Origin: an uncultured Alphaproteobacteria bacterium
GTDB lineage: Bacteria > Pseudomonadota > Alphaproteobacteria > HIMB59 > GCA-002718135
DNA: 64,000 nt
Direction: 5' to 3'
NCBI GenBank assembly: GCA_902614085.1
Contig: CACMJS010000001.1
Coordinates: forward strand, 124,001-188,000
Positions 46,052 through 52,623 of the stretch are shown here, in pieces; the stretch's first letter is position 1, and every line of letters starts with the position of its first letter. A program made the translations under genes and the position numbers. The notes under the pieces were generated by a model. The model saw nothing but the letters and a program-made list of their open reading frames with translations, made no database searches and was not told the origin of the DNA.

Positions 46052-47098
46052 ATGTTAGCAGTTGAAGTTCAAAATCTTACACACTCAATTAATAATAAAA
46101 AAATTTTAAATAATATTAATTTTAATTTAAATAAAGATAGTATCTCGTGCATTTTGGGACCATCTGGAAGTGGCAAAACTACATTACTAAAACTTATTGC
46201 AGGACTTGGAAAAGTACAATCTGGTAAAATCTTAATCAATGGTGAAGAAGTTAGTAGCGCAAATAAACATTTACCAACTGAAAAGAGAAAAATTGGCTTC
46301 TTGTTTCAGGACTATGCTTTGTTTCCACACTTAACAGTAAAACAAAATTTAGAATATCCAATTAATTATAAGAATTCAGAATATAAAATTGAAGATATTA
46401 TTGATTTAATAAAACTTCCAAACTCTTTGAATAAATTTCCTCATGAATTGAGCGGAGGTGAACAACAAAGAGTTGCATTAGCAAGATCAATAATTTCTCA
46501 ACCAGATTTACTACTTTTAGATGAGCCATTCTCTAGTCTTGACTTAAATCTTCGAGAAGAAGTGCGTGATGAAACATTACATTTATTACAAAAATCAAAT
46601 ATCTCCGTAATCATTGTTACCCATGATCCTTTTGAAGCAATGTTTATTTCTAATCAGATAAATATTATGGATACATCAGGGTATATTATTCAGTCAGGAA
46701 GTCCCGCTGAATTATATAAAAATCCAAAGAATTCTTATGTGACTGAATTTTTTGGAGAAACAAATAGATTTAATGGAATAGTGAGTAATTCTTTTGTGCA
46801 AACTCCAGTTGGAAAAATAAAAGCACCTAATGAATTTGAAAACAAGAATGTTGAAGTGCATGTAAGGCCACAAGGTATTAAACTAAAACAGCAGCCAACA
46901 CCCGTTAATGGTATCAAAGGTACCGTCATGGCTTCAAAATTAATGGGATCCTTTAGTTTTATTCATTTGTCAGTGCTCAATGATAATAATGAGGTCGTCC
47001 ATGTACACAGTCATATGCCTCCCGAATTTAACCCTCAGCAATCATCAGCAGTAGAAATTGAAATAGATCAATCTCAAGCTTTTATTTTTAAAAATTAA
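46052..47098 (+). CDS. fbpC: Ferric iron ABC transporter ATPase FbpC
   Basis: 348 residues. Walker A 'GPSGSGKTT' (~residue 34), signature 'LSGGEQQRVALARS', Walker B 'LLLDEPFSSLD', plus a C-terminal TOBE-like regulatory region with 'VHVRPQGIKL'. This is the FbpC/PotA-type ATPase. It is encoded on the plus strand, convergent with fbpB (4-nt overlap), an unusual split of the fbpABC operon. Confidence 0.9.
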   Translation: MLAVEVQNLTHSINNKKILNNINFNLNKDSISCILGPSGSGKTTLLKLIAGLGKVQSGKILINGEEVSSANKHLPTEKRKIGFLFQDYALFPHLTVKQNLEYPINYKNSEYKIEDIIDLIKLPNSLNKFPHELSGGEQQRVALARSIISQPDLLLLDEPFSSLDLNLREEVRDETLHLLQKSNISVIIVTHDPFEAMFISNQINIMDTSGYIIQSGSPAELYKNPKNSYVTEFFGETNRFNGIVSNSFVQTPVGKIKAPNEFENKNVEVHVRPQGIKLKQQPTPVNGIKGTVMASKLMGSFSFIHLSVLNDNNEVVHVHSHMPPEFNPQQSSAVEIEIDQSQAFIFKN

Positions 47099-48726
47099 TT
47101 ACTTTCTTTTTTTTGTGAAACTCTTTGAAGTGTAGAGTTTAAAAATATAACTGGTCCGAGACCAACAACAATAATTATTAATGCGGCAAATGAAGATTCT
47201 TGTAAAAGCTCGTCTGATGCGTATTGATAAACATACGTAGCTAAAGTTTCAAAATTAAATGGACGTAGTAAAAGGGTGATGGGAAGCTCTTTTAAAATAT
47301 CAACGAATACAAGTATTCCACCAATTAAAATATTAGTATAAATTAACGGTAAAACAATTACTCTAATTGTGTTTAAGAATCCTTTTCCCATTGTTTGTGA
47401 GGCATCTACGGCGTTTGGGTGAACTTTTAATATTCCAGATCTAAGTGCTGCATTTCCAACTGCTAAAAATCTTGTTGTATACGCAAAAATTAAAACTAAA
47501 AAACCACCTGCAACATAACTAATTTCAAAATTAATAATGCTGTTTAGCCAGCCAAAAAATATTACAATTCCTACTGCTAGAATTGTACCTGGCAATGCAT
47601 AACCACACGACGCAACAAATATTAGTCCTTTTTGAAAAGTATTTGATCTGTAATTAGATACAATAATTAAAATTATAGAAACCAACATTACTGTTACAGC
47701 TCCACCAAGAGCTAAGGAAATACTAGTTGTAGCCGCAAAAGTAACCTCACTAAAATTAATTATAGAAAATCCATTTAGTACAAAATTAAGAAGAATAATG
47801 ACTGGAATAATAAAACCTAGAGTTATTGGAAGTAAACATATGATAAAACAAATTAATTTACCTGAAAAAGTTATTGTTTCAGATTGTAACATATTTTGAC
47901 CACTACTTTTTTCAAAAAATCTTTGTCGGCGTCTAGCGAGATATTCAATGGTTAAAAGAACAACAACAAATATAAAAAGAACTGAAGATATCTGTGAGGC
48001 ACCAGAAAGACTATTCATACCCAACCAAACATTAAAAACACCAAGTGTTAATGTTTCTAAAGCAAAATAATCAACTGTTCCAAAATCTGAAATTGTTTCC
48101 ATTAATACCAATGCTAAACCAGCAAATATCCCTGGTCTTGCAAGTGGTAGGGCAACTGAAAAAAAACTATTACGTCCATAAATCAAACTTGTTTGGTAGA
48201 ACGATAATGGCACAGTTAAGAATGATGCTCTCGTCATCATATAAATGTAAGGATACAACACGCATGACATAACTAATATGGCACCACCCATGGAACGAAT
48301 TTCAGGAAACCAATAATCATTTGGTGAGCTCCAATTAAAAATTTCTCTTAAAAATTTTTGAAGTGGTCCAGCATATTCTAAAAAGTCTGTGTAGGTATAA
48401 GCTATTATATACGCAGGTACTGCAGCCGGTAATAATAAAGCCCATTCAAAAAATTTTTTTCCTAAGAAATTATATCTAGTTACAACCCATGCAGAAGAGA
48501 CACCAAAAATTATACTTAGCATACCAACACCTATCATCAGGACAATCGTATTATATACATATCTTGGAAGTACAGTTGAGAAGAGATGAGGCCAAAGACT
48601 GGTATCCCCTAAAAATGCGGAGTAAAAAATAGCAACTATTGGACTTATAATAAATAAAGCAAGTAAAGTTGCCAGTGTTGATGAACTATTCCAATTGTAC
48701 AAATTCACTTGTTTATAAACTACCAA
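47095..48726 (-). CDS. fbpB: Ferric iron ABC transporter permease FbpB
   Basis: 543 residues and about 12 helices in two homologous permease halves, as for FbpB/ThiP-like fused permeases. EAA loops: 'SLIYGRNSFFSVALPLARPGI' (parts: YGRNSFFSVALPLARPG) and 'ASQTMGKGFLNTIRVIVLPLIYTN' (parts: SQTMGKGFLNTIRVIVLPL). It carries Fe3+ released by FbpA. It overlaps fbpA by 7 nt upstream. Confidence 0.92.
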   Translation of the reverse strand: MVVYKQVNLYNWNSSSTLATLLALFIISPIVAIFYSAFLGDTSLWPHLFSTVLPRYVYNTIVLMIGVGMLSIIFGVSSAWVVTRYNFLGKKFFEWALLLPAAVPAYIIAYTYTDFLEYAGPLQKFLREIFNWSSPNDYWFPEIRSMGGAILVMSCVLYPYIYMMTRASFLTVPLSFYQTSLIYGRNSFFSVALPLARPGIFAGLALVLMETISDFGTVDYFALETLTLGVFNVWLGMNSLSGASQISSVLFIFVVVLLTIEYLARRRQRFFEKSSGQNMLQSETITFSGKLICFIICLLPITLGFIIPVIILLNFVLNGFSIINFSEVTFAATTSISLALGGAVTVMLVSIILIIVSNYRSNTFQKGLIFVASCGYALPGTILAVGIVIFFGWLNSIINFEISYVAGGFLVLIFAYTTRFLAVGNAALRSGILKVHPNAVDASQTMGKGFLNTIRVIVLPLIYTNILIGGILVFVDILKELPITLLLRPFNFETLATYVYQYASDELLQESSFAALIIIVVGLGPVIFLNSTLQRVSQKKESN

Positions 48727-49739
48727 CCTACTCGATCAATTATCTTTTGTGCCTCTGGAGCTAATTCTGCTATTTTGATAATTGGAAGGGTGTCTTCACG
48801 AAAACTGCCCCAGCTTTTTAACTCGTCTCCAGGTTCTATTTTAAGATTTGCAGGATATTCGAAATTTATTTCACCATAAAGTTTTTGTGCTTTTTCACTT
48901 GTTAAAAATTCTAAAAGTTTTTGAGCTTCTTCTTTATTCTTTGAAAATTTTGCTATTCCACCCCCTGATATATTAACATGAGCACCTCTATCACCTTCAG
49001 CTTGGTTAGGAAAAACCAATCTAACACTTTCAGCCCATTTTCTTTGCTCAGGATCTTCTGAGAATTTAAGTTTTCCAAAATAATAATTATTAATTAAAGC
49101 AATTTCGCACTCACCTTCATGGATTGCTTTAACTTGAGCTCTATCATTTCCTTGTGGTCTTTTTGCAAAGTTAGCAACCATATCCTTTGCCCATTTTTCT
49201 GCTTTTTCTTCACCTAGTGCAGCTAAAACAGAAGCCATAATACCTCGATTATAAACATGGCTTCCAGGTCTTGAACAAATTTTTCCCTTCCATTTGGGAT
49301 CGGCTAATTCTTCAATTCTCGTTATGTCCCCATCTGCAATCTTTTCGTTATGGACTACGATAACTCTAGCTCTTTTGGATAATCCAAACCATGTATTATC
49401 AGGACTTCTTAAATAATTAGGAATATTATTTTGAAGTTTTTTTGAATCTATTGGTGCAAGAAGATCAAGATCATCATAAACATACAACCTTCCAATATCG
49501 ACAGTGAGTATAACGTCAGCTGGACTATTTTCACCCTCTGCTTTTAATCTTTGGGCAAGACCTTTTTTTGAGTAAACTACATTAGTTTTAATTCCAGTTT
49601 CTTGAGTAAATAATTCTAAAAAAGGGTTAATTAAAAAAGGTTGTCTATGAGAATAAATATTAAGCTCTTTAGCGTTAAGGTAAGGTGTTAAAATAAAGAC
49701 AACAAATACAAATAAAAGACGTAATAGATTAGTTCTCAT
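48720..49739 (-). CDS. fbpA: Ferric iron-binding periplasmic protein FbpA
   Basis: 339 residues with a signal peptide ending near 'YLNAKE' (~24). 'LNIYSHRQPFLINPFLELFTQETGI' (parts: NIYSHRQPFL, FTQETGI) and 'EIALINNYYFGKLKF' (parts: INNYYFG, the paired iron-binding tyrosines) identify FbpA. 'NISGGGIAKFSKNKEEA' is also typical. It captures Fe3+ for FbpB/FbpC. It overlaps the sterol-desaturase-like gene by 11 nt, so these are co-transcribed. Confidence 0.93.
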   Translation of the reverse strand: MRTNLLRLLFVFVVFILTPYLNAKELNIYSHRQPFLINPFLELFTQETGIKTNVVYSKKGLAQRLKAEGENSPADVILTVDIGRLYVYDDLDLLAPIDSKKLQNNIPNYLRSPDNTWFGLSKRARVIVVHNEKIADGDITRIEELADPKWKGKICSRPGSHVYNRGIMASVLAALGEEKAEKWAKDMVANFAKRPQGNDRAQVKAIHEGECEIALINNYYFGKLKFSEDPEQRKWAESVRLVFPNQAEGDRGAHVNISGGGIAKFSKNKEEAQKLLEFLTSEKAQKLYGEINFEYPANLKIEPGDELKSWGSFREDTLPIIKIAELAPEAQKIIDRVGW

Positions 49740-50739
49740 TTAATGATCTCCATTTTAAGTTAATTGAATAAATTTTATTTTTAATTTTGAGAAATTTTTT
49801 AAAAAAATAATTTTTAATTTCTACAAAAGGGTTGATATATAAATATTTTAGATCATGACTTTCATCTTTTTGATTTTTTTCGATTCCTAATTCAAGTGTA
49901 TCAAACTCAACAGAATGATGTAAAGATCCAAACACCCAATCCCATACAGCAAGTGCTGCTCCAAAATTTTTATCATGATGCTCTCTTGCAATCGAATGAT
50001 GAAGTTGATGTTGTGCTGGTGAAATAAAAATATATTCTACCCACTTCCAATATCTGATACCAACATGGGAATGACGTAAATTAGAGCCAAGAATATTAAA
50101 AAGAAAAACAAATATATTTACACCTAATACAGTGTACAAACTTACGGTATTTCCAAAAAGAAATATAAATGAGGATATGCTGATAGCTTGAGTAACTGAA
50201 CTTCTGAGTGAAAATATAATTCCTTCTAAAGGATGTGTTCTAAAAACTGTCATTGGTGTCAGCACTGTTGCTGAGTGGTGTACTTTATGTAGCGACCATA
50301 AAATTGGCCACTTATGCATAAAGCGATGAATGATATATTTACTAAAATCATCAATTAAGAATTGGAAGGTAGTAAAAGATATAATTACAATTATTGGCAA
50401 TGTGCTATTGAACATTCCAACACTTAACCAATCAATTGTATGGAAATAGAAATAAAGTGCTGTTGCAATGGTTAATTGTGTAATTAAAAATGGTGACACA
50501 GTCATCATAATCAATTGATTGATTAAAAACACTTTGTAGTCTGACTTTGCTGACTTTGAAAAAAATATCTTTTTATCGAAAATTTTTTTTATTGCGCCTA
50601 CGAACGAATATTTTTTGTTTAAAATAAACCACACAAATGCAATAGCTATTGATATTGCAATATAAGCAATAAAAATTCTCTTTTTAGGATCAATAAATTG
50701 ATTACCTATGTTTGATATATATTCTATTAATATTTCCAT
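49729..50739 (-). CDS. Sterol desaturase / fatty acid hydroxylase family membrane protein
   Basis: 336 residues, 4-5 helices. Three histidine clusters of a di-iron oxygenase: 'IHRFMHKW', 'LHKVHHSATVL' and 'QLHHSIAREHHDKNFG' (with the preceding 'RHSHVG'). Such proteins hydroxylate or desaturate lipids. The overlap with fbpA suggests that it shares iron-dependent expression; an iron enzyme beside its iron importer makes sense but is inference. The substrate is unknown. Confidence 0.88.
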   Translation of the reverse strand: MEILIEYISNIGNQFIDPKKRIFIAYIAISIAIAFVWFILNKKYSFVGAIKKIFDKKIFFSKSAKSDYKVFLINQLIMMTVSPFLITQLTIATALYFYFHTIDWLSVGMFNSTLPIIVIISFTTFQFLIDDFSKYIIHRFMHKWPILWSLHKVHHSATVLTPMTVFRTHPLEGIIFSLRSSVTQAISISSFIFLFGNTVSLYTVLGVNIFVFLFNILGSNLRHSHVGIRYWKWVEYIFISPAQHQLHHSIAREHHDKNFGAALAVWDWVFGSLHHSVEFDTLELGIEKNQKDESHDLKYLYINPFVEIKNYFFKKFLKIKNKIYSINLKWRSLNEN

Positions 50740-50751
50740 TCCAATTTAGTA

Positions 50752-50776
50752 AGTGTGGCTTAAATTAAGCCACACT
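50752..50776 (-). terminator. Strong palindromic hairpin between DUF4856 gene and sterol-desaturase operon
   Basis: AGTGTGGCTT (50752-50761) is perfectly complementary to AAGCCACACT (50767-50776) around 5 bases. On the minus strand it follows the DUF4856 stop by 13 nt. There is no long T-run after it, so it may be a weak terminator or mRNA-stabilising structure. Confidence 0.6.
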
Positions 50777-50789
50777 AATTGTATATAAT

Positions 50790-52169
50790 TTAGTCGTTCT
50801 CTGCTGAGTCAGAGCTACCCATTGAACCAGCTAGCTCTTCCATTGCAGCTAATTGATCATTATTTCTTGCAGTAACTCCAAATTCATCAACCATTAGTTT
50901 TTGAATTTTTAGCATGTGAAGTTTAAATTCACTCCACTCTTGAGCCTGATCTTTTATAAAATTACCACTTGAATCTACTCCAACAACTTGAGATGCATTT
51001 AATAGAACGGGACCAAAACCCATCATACGGTTCATTTTAACTGCTGTTTCACCCAAGTCACTTGGTCCACATTGTAAAGCTAAAGCAAAACCTTTAAGTT
51101 CTCCCCAATGCTTAGCATATTTTCTGAAAGCATCAGTTGTATCTCCGTTAGCATCCATAATAGTTTCAAGTGCAACTATATCTTTATATGTTGAGCCTGC
51201 ATATTTGAAGACTGACTCTGCGATTACCTTTTGCCAGTTATCTACAATTATATCTCTTGCTGCTAACATTTCGGTTCTTTCAGAGAAATTTAAATTTCTA
51301 CCGCCAGCATCTCTGATAACCTTACGTCCATCAATAAATGCTTGGTTAATTGTTGCTAGATAATCAGTTTTACCACCTTTATCATAACTTGAAGCGTAGT
51401 AAGCATGAGCAAATAACATCTCAGAATATAAATCCACAACACCATCACCATTGTAATCAGCTGCAGCTAAATCTTTCATTTTAGCAACATTATAATTTTG
51501 TTCTGCTGTTAATGTTAAAGAGTGTGCCGGAGCACCCCAATATCCAAATGCTTCATCCCAACTATGCTCTTTTCCAGTATAGTATGCTCCATCCTTGTAA
51601 GGTTTGTTATTTGGTTTTTGACCAATTTCCATTTTACTTCCAAGATAGTTATTTACAGCTTGGTTATAAAAAACAGCACCCATAGCAAACTTAGAAATTA
51701 ATTGGGTGTAATCAAATCCTGTAGAAGGATCAAAATCACCACCATTTTCACTAGCCTTTTGCATCATATGCTCTAAAGCTTCAGGACCAGTTAGGTTGCC
51801 CCATCCAGGAATATAACCTTTGTACATTTTGCCAGATAAATTTCCACTGCCTATCTCTGCAACCATAGTTTGCATTACTGGAAAACCATCTTTTGATTTT
51901 GGGGCAATAATCTCTAAACCATCTTCCCCATTGTAATAGGCCATCATTTTTTCTAGATCACCAGTTTTAACAAGTTTCTTCAAACTATCATGTAAAACTT
52001 GCCTTGCCATTTGACCTGTATATTTTACTGAATTTGTTTCATCCCCTTCATAACCTTTTAGAGTAATTGGATATGGACCATAAATCTCTGGGCCATGACC
52101 ATCTGCAAAAGATTTAGAAAAGCTAAATGAGAAAACTAATGCACTAGCAATCACTAATATTTTTTTCAT
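50790..52169 (-). CDS. Periplasmic DUF4856-family protein
   Basis: 459 residues with signal peptide 'MKKILVIASALVFSFSFSKSFA' (parts: VIASALVFSFS, SKSFA). 'KHWGELKGFALALQ' and 'QVLHDSLKKLV' are DUF4856 hallmarks; 'ADYNGDGVVDLYSE' looks like an EF-hand/dockerin-type calcium loop (D-x-N-x-D-x-x-x-D). A C-terminal acidic stretch ends the protein. DUF4856 proteins have no firm function; some occur near iron-uptake genes and imelysins, and here fbpAB lies downstream in the same direction. A long structured leader precedes it. Confidence 0.78.
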   Translation of the reverse strand: MKKILVIASALVFSFSFSKSFADGHGPEIYGPYPITLKGYEGDETNSVKYTGQMARQVLHDSLKKLVKTGDLEKMMAYYNGEDGLEIIAPKSKDGFPVMQTMVAEIGSGNLSGKMYKGYIPGWGNLTGPEALEHMMQKASENGGDFDPSTGFDYTQLISKFAMGAVFYNQAVNNYLGSKMEIGQKPNNKPYKDGAYYTGKEHSWDEAFGYWGAPAHSLTLTAEQNYNVAKMKDLAAADYNGDGVVDLYSEMLFAHAYYASSYDKGGKTDYLATINQAFIDGRKVIRDAGGRNLNFSERTEMLAARDIIVDNWQKVIAESVFKYAGSTYKDIVALETIMDANGDTTDAFRKYAKHWGELKGFALALQCGPSDLGETAVKMNRMMGFGPVLLNASQVVGVDSSGNFIKDQAQEWSEFKLHMLKIQKLMVDEFGVTARNNDQLAAMEELAGSMGSSDSAEND

Positions 52170-52208
52170 ATTTTTTTTCCTTAATTATTAATTTCTTAGT
52201 TTATGGTT

Positions 52209-52277
52209 GTGGAGATAAGTAAAAACCTGTTAGGTTAAGATGCGCTTTTACCCTTAAAATAGATTACTTATCTCCAC
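52209..52277 (-). promoter_or_regulatory. Structured 5' leader of the DUF4856 gene (possible three-way junction)
   Basis: GTGGAGATAAGTAA (52209-52222) pairs perfectly with TTACTTATCTCCAC (52264-52277). Inside the 41-nt loop are two smaller stems: AACCT/AGGTT (52224-52228, 52232-52236) and TTAAG/CTTAA (52235-52239, 52253-52257), sharing two bases. On the minus strand it lies 40 nt before the DUF4856 ATG. There is no T-run after either arm, so it is not a simple terminator; a cis-regulatory RNA is plausible. Confidence 0.55.
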
Positions 52278-52370
52278 GTCCTATTACTAAGGATCTAGAA
52301 GCTTTTTATAATATTATTAAAGGCATAATTTTTTATTTTAATTGACTAGTTTTTTTGGGAAAAATTATCT

Positions 52371-52400
52371 GTTTTTAGAGTTATTCTAATTTAAAGAAAT
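52371..52400. repeat. 30-bp direct repeat, first copy
   Basis: Begins GTTTTTAGAG and matches 52555-52584 at 26 of 30 bases (four substitutions). The copies are 184 bp apart in the same orientation. The second inverted repeat lies between them. Meaning unknown. Confidence 0.6.
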
Positions 52401-52409
52401 TTTGAAGTA

Positions 52410-52466
52410 GGTGGTTAATAATCGTAATATTAAATGTGAGTTATAATGTTATAAAAATTAACCACC
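52410..52466. repeat. Inverted repeat (10-bp arms)
   Basis: GGTGGTTAAT (52410-52419) and ATTAACCACC (52457-52466) are perfect complements around 37 bases. It could be the stem of a small RNA transcribed from the plus-strand promoter-like site at 52342, or a protein-binding dyad. Confidence 0.5.
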
Positions 52467-52554
52467 ATGGAACGGAAGTAGAGTTTTAATTAATAAAAAA
52501 AAAAATATTTTGTAAAAAAATTTTTTATTCAATATTTCGAAACAATTATGAAGT

Positions 52555-52584
52555 GTTTTTAGAACTATTCTAATTAAAAGGAAT
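52555..52584. repeat. 30-bp direct repeat, second copy
   Basis: Begins GTTTTTAGAA; pairs with the copy at 52371-52400. It ends 22 bp before the hsp20 terminator-like hairpin. Confidence 0.6.
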
Positions 52585-52605: not shown

Positions 52606-52623
52606 GGGGCCACTTTGGGCCCC
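52606..52623 (-). terminator. G/C-rich hairpin after hsp20
   Basis: GGGGCC (52606-52611) pairs with GGCCCC (52618-52623) around ACTTTG. It is the most G/C-rich patch in the area and lies 10 nt after the hsp20 stop. The T-run on the minus strand is delayed (about 12 nt), so termination may be partial. Confidence 0.6.

Follow-up and report, generated by a model that had tools for sequence, protein, structure and literature searches.

A conserved hairpin leader downstream of an Irr-like box precedes a probable iron-uptake operon in marine Alphaproteobacteria

Background

Iron often limits bacteria of the open ocean. In a 64,000-nt stretch of DNA from an uncultured alphaproteobacterium (hereafter, the window), a long palindrome stands upstream of a DUF4856 gene, behind which lie genes resembling fbpA and fbpB. 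The first-pass annotation read this palindrome as the outline of a cis-acting RNA, either riboswitch-like or a translational switch, with iron or a metal as a possible signal. The locus therefore raises two questions: is the palindrome a conserved element of the mRNA, and, if so, what might it do for the genes that follow?

Results

The palindrome is part of a longer leader

The 14 perfect pairs enclosing 41 nt that had been described are present on the minus strand (H1, Table 1), and 39 nt separate the end of the stem from the A of the DUF4856 ATG at 52169, in agreement with the earlier estimate of about 40 nt. The reported absence of a terminator also agrees with the terminator scan, which flagged none. 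Two inner stems had been drawn inside the loop; the GGUAA/UUA-ACC stem is kept in relatives, and the other is absent from the consensus. Compared with dinucleotide shuffles, the fold is unusually stable (z -3.80 for 181 nt of the plus strand, with 0/200 shuffles as good, and z -3.22 for 261 nt of the minus strand, with 2/200 as good). H1 is part of a longer conserved leader that begins near 52296 and adds an outer 6-bp stem and a 19-nt 5' segment, H0, which can either form a 4-bp local hairpin or donate its CUUAGU to the outer stem. A search of the whole window against Rfam 15 gave 0 matches at the gathering cut-off, and the leader region searched at E up to 5 gave only MIR1888 and SNORD98, both unrelated and far under the cut-off.

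Table 1 Features of the leader, its upstream region and the genes downstream (window coordinates)
Feature	Position	Strand	Remarks
fbpB-like permease gene	47095..48726	minus	
fbpA-like substrate-binding protein gene	48720..49739	minus	
Fatty acid hydroxylase family gene	49729..50739	minus	
DUF4856 gene	50790..52169	minus	459 aa; Pfam PF16148, 42.2 bits (cut-off 22.3); first gene of the presumed operon
Shine-Dalgarno-like AAGGA	52178..52182	minus	predicted mostly unpaired
Outer stem, 3' arm ACUAAG	52195..52200	minus	5' arm CUUAGU at 52286-52291
H1, main hairpin	52209..52277	minus (gene strand)	14-bp stem, 52264-52277 with 52209-52222; 41-nt loop
Inner stem within H1 loop	~52233..52252	minus	GGUAA with UUA-ACC; kept in relatives with G-U changes
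H0, 5' segment	52278..52296	minus	AGATCCTTAGTAATAGGAC; at the putative transcript start
-10-like TATAAA	52305..52310	minus	8 nt before leader start; putative promoter
ICE1, Irr-box-like	52375..52389	minus	TTAGAATAACTCTAA; 78 nt before leader start
M1, second structured element	52404..52479	minus	79 nt after ICE2; folds into 9-10-bp stem
ICE2, Irr-box-like	52559..52573	minus	TTAGAATAGTTCTAA; shares 31-nt direct repeat D2 with ICE1

To judge by their spacing, the DUF4856, fatty acid hydroxylase, fbpA and fbpB genes would form one operon. The curated models nearest to the fbpA-like protein are those of 2-aminoethylphosphonate binding proteins, which it matches far below the cut-off, so that iron can only be its presumed substrate; the label of a probable iron transporter comes from the naming in the first-pass annotation, the Irr-like boxes and the relatives. 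The named best matches are marine single-cell and metagenome genomes, among them AG-422-J16 (100% protein identity) and MarineAlpha5 and SAG-MED31 records; we infer that the lineage belongs to the AEGEAN-169/HIMB59 clade (PMC10308909, in excerpt), a paper on which names the strains HIMB59 and LSUCC0245.

Pairing is kept in relatives and the letters are replaced between groups

Is the hairpin retained in other genomes? DUF4856 is present in 31 of the 101 genomes of the genus and in 35 of the 110 of the family. Within the genus, 31 upstream regions were read, G011 (L031), truncated upstream, being left out, and a hairpin leader was found in all 31 readable loci: 19 with the type of the window (group A), 11 with a second type (group B, which takes in L029 and L074) and one, L027, with an unrelated 15-bp hairpin. 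Among three DUF4856 loci from other genera, L071 has a hairpin with different letters, and L072 and L073 have none. The loss of pairing in homologous leaders, which would have spoken against the annotation, is thus seen in these last two loci, with pairing present in L071 and throughout the genus.

Because MAFFT put the 3' arms in the wrong place when groups A and B were aligned jointly, the groups were analysed apart and the arms compared directly. Across the 19 group-A loci (171 pairs), no difference is seen in H0 or in the first 8 nt of either H1 arm, against a background of 0.53-0.60 identity at 4-fold sites and 65% in the linker between box and leader. In group B, the H0 letters are identical in the 9 of 11 loci compared, and the arms are 85-94% identical, depending on the subset. 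The whole loop side is 71-78% identical, and within each of groups A and B parts of the apical loop are conserved. The first 8 pairs of H1 are kept in all leaders of both groups (19/19 and 11/11), and G-U replaces Watson-Crick pairs in several stems. Ten group-B rows contain four pairs with changes on both sides, compared with 0.6 in shuffles (0/500 reach four), as counted on a structure derived from the same alignment. When 13 arm pairs from seven sequence groups were exchanged, pairing fell from 99% for own arms to 57% for all swaps and 51% for swaps between groups, a value close to that of shuffled arms (52%). The outer stem is paired in 16/16 group-A rows, in one through U-G, and since its other pairs never vary, this amounts to conservation, not covariation. 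The ribosome site has a mean unpaired probability of 0.31-0.99 across the folded leaders and falls below 0.5 only in L026, L024 and L021.

A related leader occurs where DUF4856 is absent. The gene for FbpA was found in 93 of the 110 family genomes. In the loci without DUF4856 that were read, it follows Hsp20 or a membrane-protein gene, presumably HupE-like. Upstream regions of this kind were retrieved from 56 loci, of which 53 were analysed, and 46 of the 53 carry a compact leader directly before fbpA (group C). This leader consists of ATTCTTAATCATAGAAC, with single changes in a few cases, and a 9-bp stem, mostly GTGGAGATA/TATCTCCAC, with a 5-nt loop; all nine pairs are formed in 41 of the 46, and one pair is broken in the other five. 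In the other seven of the 53, different hairpins stand in L269 and L270, the 5' half is gone from L230, and no such hairpin is present in L267, L271, L272 and L273, which come from other genera; in L271 a box at one mismatch is missing as well. Four further loci, L187-L190, have a stem that begins with GAGGGTT, has AACCCTC at the base and varies in its letters higher up, one inner position being unpaired in L188 and L189.

The cis-acting RNA proposed in the first-pass annotation is supported by conservation, compensatory changes and linkage to the start of the operon both with and without DUF4856. Location, conservation, covariation, fixed box spacing (see below) and linkage to the same kinds of gene can all be read from the sequences themselves.

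As side observations, FbpA is 73-100% identical to that of the window in 33 genomes, all with DUF4856, and 54-61% identical in 60 genomes, none with a DUF4856 match. Two FbpA matches have one internal TAA (G105:C3:80001-81014 and G106:C1:542488-543501), both in genomes of one sister genus.

Copies elsewhere in the genomes

Covariance models of the leaders (R1 and R2) were searched over the 110 genomes with stricter filters. The matches comprised 19 and 11 DUF4856 leaders, three weak fbpA leaders (G079, G066 and G026) and, on the reverse strand, echoes of these palindromes. A riboswitch dispersed over several operons was rejected on this basis, the models finding one operon per genome, with limited sensitivity: most of the 46 group-C leaders went undetected, and copies with other letters at other genes would likewise escape them. 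A search for H0 in the window with up to three mismatches found no second match, where 0.93 would be expected by chance. In 31 genomes, 12 of the 37 matches to the H0 motif were the leaders, and five of the other 25 were checked, all lying within open frames.

The leader starts at a fixed distance from an Irr-like box

Another important question is how the leader is placed relative to possible control sites. The ICE box has the consensus TTAGAA-N3-TTCTAA. With at most one mismatch to this consensus, an ICE-like box lies 77-80 nt upstream of 74 of the 76 leaders of groups A-C. The gap is 78 nt in 18 of the 19 group-A leaders (77 in one), 79 nt in 10 of the 11 in group B (80 in one) and 77 nt in 43 of the 46 in group C (78 in one, two being without a box at one mismatch), and it stays fixed while the distance from leader to ATG ranges from 56 to 131 nt. 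The linker is mostly variable in groups A and B, with a better-kept block at about -45 to -40; the group-C sequences are all close to one another. A box without a hairpin is found in L072 and L073, and a hairpin without a box at one mismatch in L071.

The fixed box geometry, the TATAAA 8 nt upstream and the jump in conservation at the first base suggest that the start of the leader is the start of transcription; in group A, a conserved block at -15 to -10 is followed by a jump to an identity of 1.00 at the leader start. A scan for consensus promoters did not flag TATAAA, its nearest site having the second hexamer at 52313-52318, and the two sites that it reported are no more than in shuffles (3.1).

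Over the whole genome, ICE-like sites are hardly enriched (30 versus 24 for reversed-pattern controls). Of the 21 loci whose box has no more than one mismatch, 17 fall within open frames; the boxes outside are the two described here and that of L284, which a long open frame follows after 19 nt, and L293, cut off at its contig end, was left unplaced. Two Fur-family proteins are encoded in the genome. The best model for L299 is IrrA (NF045678, 4.4e-44, 149.7 bits versus a cut-off of 150), with the Irr model at 145 bits versus 170, and L300 is nearest to Zur (79.2 bits versus a cut-off of 167). PMC3413700 describes ICE motifs near the promoters of Irr targets; according to its introduction, every species examined by that date showed repression by Irr under iron depletion, and its abstract reports an activator function of Irr in Rhodobacter.

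Iron as the signal, offered as a guess in the first-pass annotation, receives indirect support from the two ICE/Irr-like boxes, the Irr-like protein, the fbp-like genes downstream and the Fur-like boxes before DUF4856 elsewhere, and the operon is probably an Irr-box-linked iron-uptake operon. The Fur-like boxes were seen outside the clade, in other alphaproteobacteria and proteobacteria: by eye in L065-L070, and in 26 of the 50 loci L105-L154 at up to six mismatches of 19, a threshold that is loose and had no shuffled control. Such frequent upstream boxes raise the possibility that the DUF4856 family is widely iron-regulated.

A second box is followed by a second structured element

Upstream of ICE1 lies another structured element, M1. 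One pair of its stem is seen as G-C, G-U and A-U and another as U-A and U-G, the rest of the outer stem being invariant. The gap from ICE2 to M1 is 78-79 nt in all 17 group-A loci with two boxes, and M1 is 95-96% identical in group A, compared with 54-63% at 4-fold sites and 68-72% in the linker upstream. A short peptide encoded within M1 (ATG...TAA in the window) was considered and rejected, its frame not being kept in L018 and L023.

In L017 and L018, M1 precedes a gene for a protein of 119 aa that matched no family in Pfam; in the other 17 group-A loci, the boxes are 166-169 nt apart, with no room for this gene. The genome of the window carries a 37% identical relative of it elsewhere. Nine of the 11 group-B genomes have a related gene directly before the DUF4856 leader, the copy in G068 having an internal TGA. 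In eight aligned group-B loci, this related gene is itself preceded by a box and then, with 84-86 nt between the box and where conserved letters begin, by another conserved hairpin; its invariant loop is TTGCAGGTACCAGCG (L099:2359-2443 and seven more loci), and the L099 leader had no meaningful match in Rfam. Taken together, the DUF4856/fbpA leaders and the small-gene leaders indicate that at least two kinds of leader share the plan of a box, a near-fixed gap and a hairpin.

A wider scheme could be built on this plan, namely a two-layer iron control module in which every Irr-type promoter would have, at a set distance, the start of a structured leader RNA unlike any in Rfam, and in which M1, the leader of a missing 119-aa gene, would have been kept at about 95% to serve either as one of two tandem leaders or as a small RNA under iron control that acts on the adjoining operon. 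We regard this scheme as doubtful.

Discussion

What could the leader do? Our preferred explanation, held tentatively at a probability of roughly 0.4, is that it is a 5'-end stability or ribosome-access element on the mRNA of the iron-type operon; a specific partner comes next, then an anti-Shine-Dalgarno switch, with a riboswitch lower. Under presumed Irr control, of either sign, and with a presumed response to iron, transcription would begin some 78 nt beyond the Irr-like box; the initial 19 nt, together with the strong hairpin, would fold at the 5' end of the mRNA and leave the ribosome site mostly open; and this folded end would shield the long mRNA from 5'-end-dependent decay and keep the ribosome site clear. 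Stem-loops in the 5' UTR are reported to confer stability on the recA and vacA mRNAs (PMC7509114, in excerpt). The leader resembles stabilising stem-loops of the ompA/recA/vacA type in having a strong hairpin near the putative mRNA 5' end, with the ribosome site mostly free, and in keeping its structure while the letters change between lineages. It differs from them in that its letters are frozen in group A and that it is attached to Irr-like boxes at a fixed spacing.

Pairing kept with the letters free to change is what is found between groups, and a structural role at the 5' end of the mRNA fits because the letters are replaced there while the pairing is retained; it is not what is found within group A, where the frozen letters call for an additional, specific constraint. 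A stabiliser for which any hairpin would serve does not explain zero changes across 35 nt of group A. Our preferred explanation also has against it the loci without the hairpin (L072 and L073), without such a hairpin (L267, L271, L272 and L273) or with the 5' half lost (L230), the hairpin of L071 that has no box at one mismatch, the broken pair in five of the 46 group-C stems and the slight genome-wide enrichment of ICE-like sites. In group A, where the exact letters are held, a specific protein or RNA partner may add to the effect of the fold.

Alternatively, the leader would be a docking site for such a partner, a specific trans-acting RNA-binding protein or small RNA that adjusts the operon post-transcriptionally. 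In favour of this reading, H0 and the letters at the stem base are frozen in group A, where pairing alone would permit change; groups A and B each conserve parts of the apical loop, even if identity over the whole loop side is no more than 71-78%, and M1, kept at 95-96% without an adjacent gene, could supply the RNA. We nevertheless consider it unlikely: from one lineage to another both the stem letters and the loop are completely exchanged, the R1/R2 and H0 searches, of limited sensitivity, revealed no copy at other genes, and we know of no partner.

More improbable is the translational switch of the first-pass annotation, in which the 5' segment would choose between a local hairpin, the outer stem and the Shine-Dalgarno site as alternative pairings, a signal shifting the balance. 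Group A allows it, since UCCUUAGU can pair there with AUUAAGGA over 8 bp (-8.7 kcal/mol) in four of the six leaders tested, in competition with the CUUAGU/ACUAAG outer stem. The energy between a leader's own 5' segment and ribosome site has a mean of -5.07 versus -2.52 for shuffled segments, with 7.5% of the shuffles reaching the own mean; cross-group pairs, however, come near to own pairs (-3.89 versus -5.07), groups C, E, F and G give weak energies, and the predicted probability of the anti-Shine-Dalgarno pairing is at most 0.35 in every leader folded.

A metal- or metabolite-binding riboswitch, the other form proposed at first, is not supported and seems very improbable. Although a structured leader before uptake-type genes, with loop letters conserved within groups A and B, would suit it, no Rfam family was matched, one operon per genome was found (at limited sensitivity), and distant carriers have no ligand-binding core in common, stem letters and loop being replaced between lineages and the loop shrinking from 41 nt in the window to 5 nt in group C. 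Least probable of all is a feature of the DNA, in which H0 would act as a dyad operator where transcription starts and a protein would bind the palindrome: H0 is indeed a dyad, nearly invariant and always equally far from the ICE-like box, but G-U replaces Watson-Crick pairs in several stems, the separation of the arms varies more widely than a DNA-binding dimer would readily tolerate, and the five near-matches to the dyad that were checked all lie within open frames.

Like the Irr/ICE-regulated iron genes of alphaproteobacteria, the iron-type genes here have TTAGAA-N3-TTCTAA boxes upstream, and the genome encodes an Irr-like protein; unlike them, they have the predicted box about 78 nt before the putative start and then a structured leader. 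Structured 5' elements have likewise been found by comparison in marine and other bacteria, as candidate RNAs of Pelagibacter and metagenomes (PMC2704228 and PMC2864571, both in excerpt). A term search in the accessible text of PMC2704228 found no 'iron', 'ferric' or 'fbpA', and in that of PMC2864571 'iron' occurs once, within the reference list. The leader is apparently an undescribed RNA, no description of it having been found in the literature searched on DUF4856, on AEGEAN-169/HIMB59 and iron, on Irr and on marine structured RNAs, a scope that leaves most subscription journals outside. A conserved leader on the iron-uptake operon of a streamlined marine clade, presumably AEGEAN-169/HIMB59, would imply that an RNA layer on iron uptake is retained even by genomes with little regulation. 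The analysis also provides a concrete testable RNA and covariance models that can be searched in ocean transcriptomes.

Other features of the locus

An imelysin-like fold for the DUF4856 protein was considered and rejected, the predicted structure (mean pLDDT 87.5) having no Foldseek match at E up to 0.001. In the VIA-align rows for this model, the matches consist of bundled helices (best Z 9.3, 197 aligned, rmsd 3.9), which falls in a range that the tool calls common, and a PDB sequence search with DUF4856 returned no relative; for the predicted model, these searches do not exclude a known fold.

A GC-rich palindrome, GGGGCCACTTTGGGCCCC, lies at 52606-52623, directly after the Hsp20 gene and in AT-rich surroundings; it is perhaps the Hsp20 terminator, which the terminator scan did not flag. 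Between the DUF4856 and fatty acid hydroxylase genes, a 12-bp perfect inverted repeat (AGTGTGGCTTAA / TTAAGCCACACT, 1 nt apart) occupies 50752-50776. It is perhaps a processing or attenuation point within the operon, and hairpins resembling it occur in the loci of relatives.
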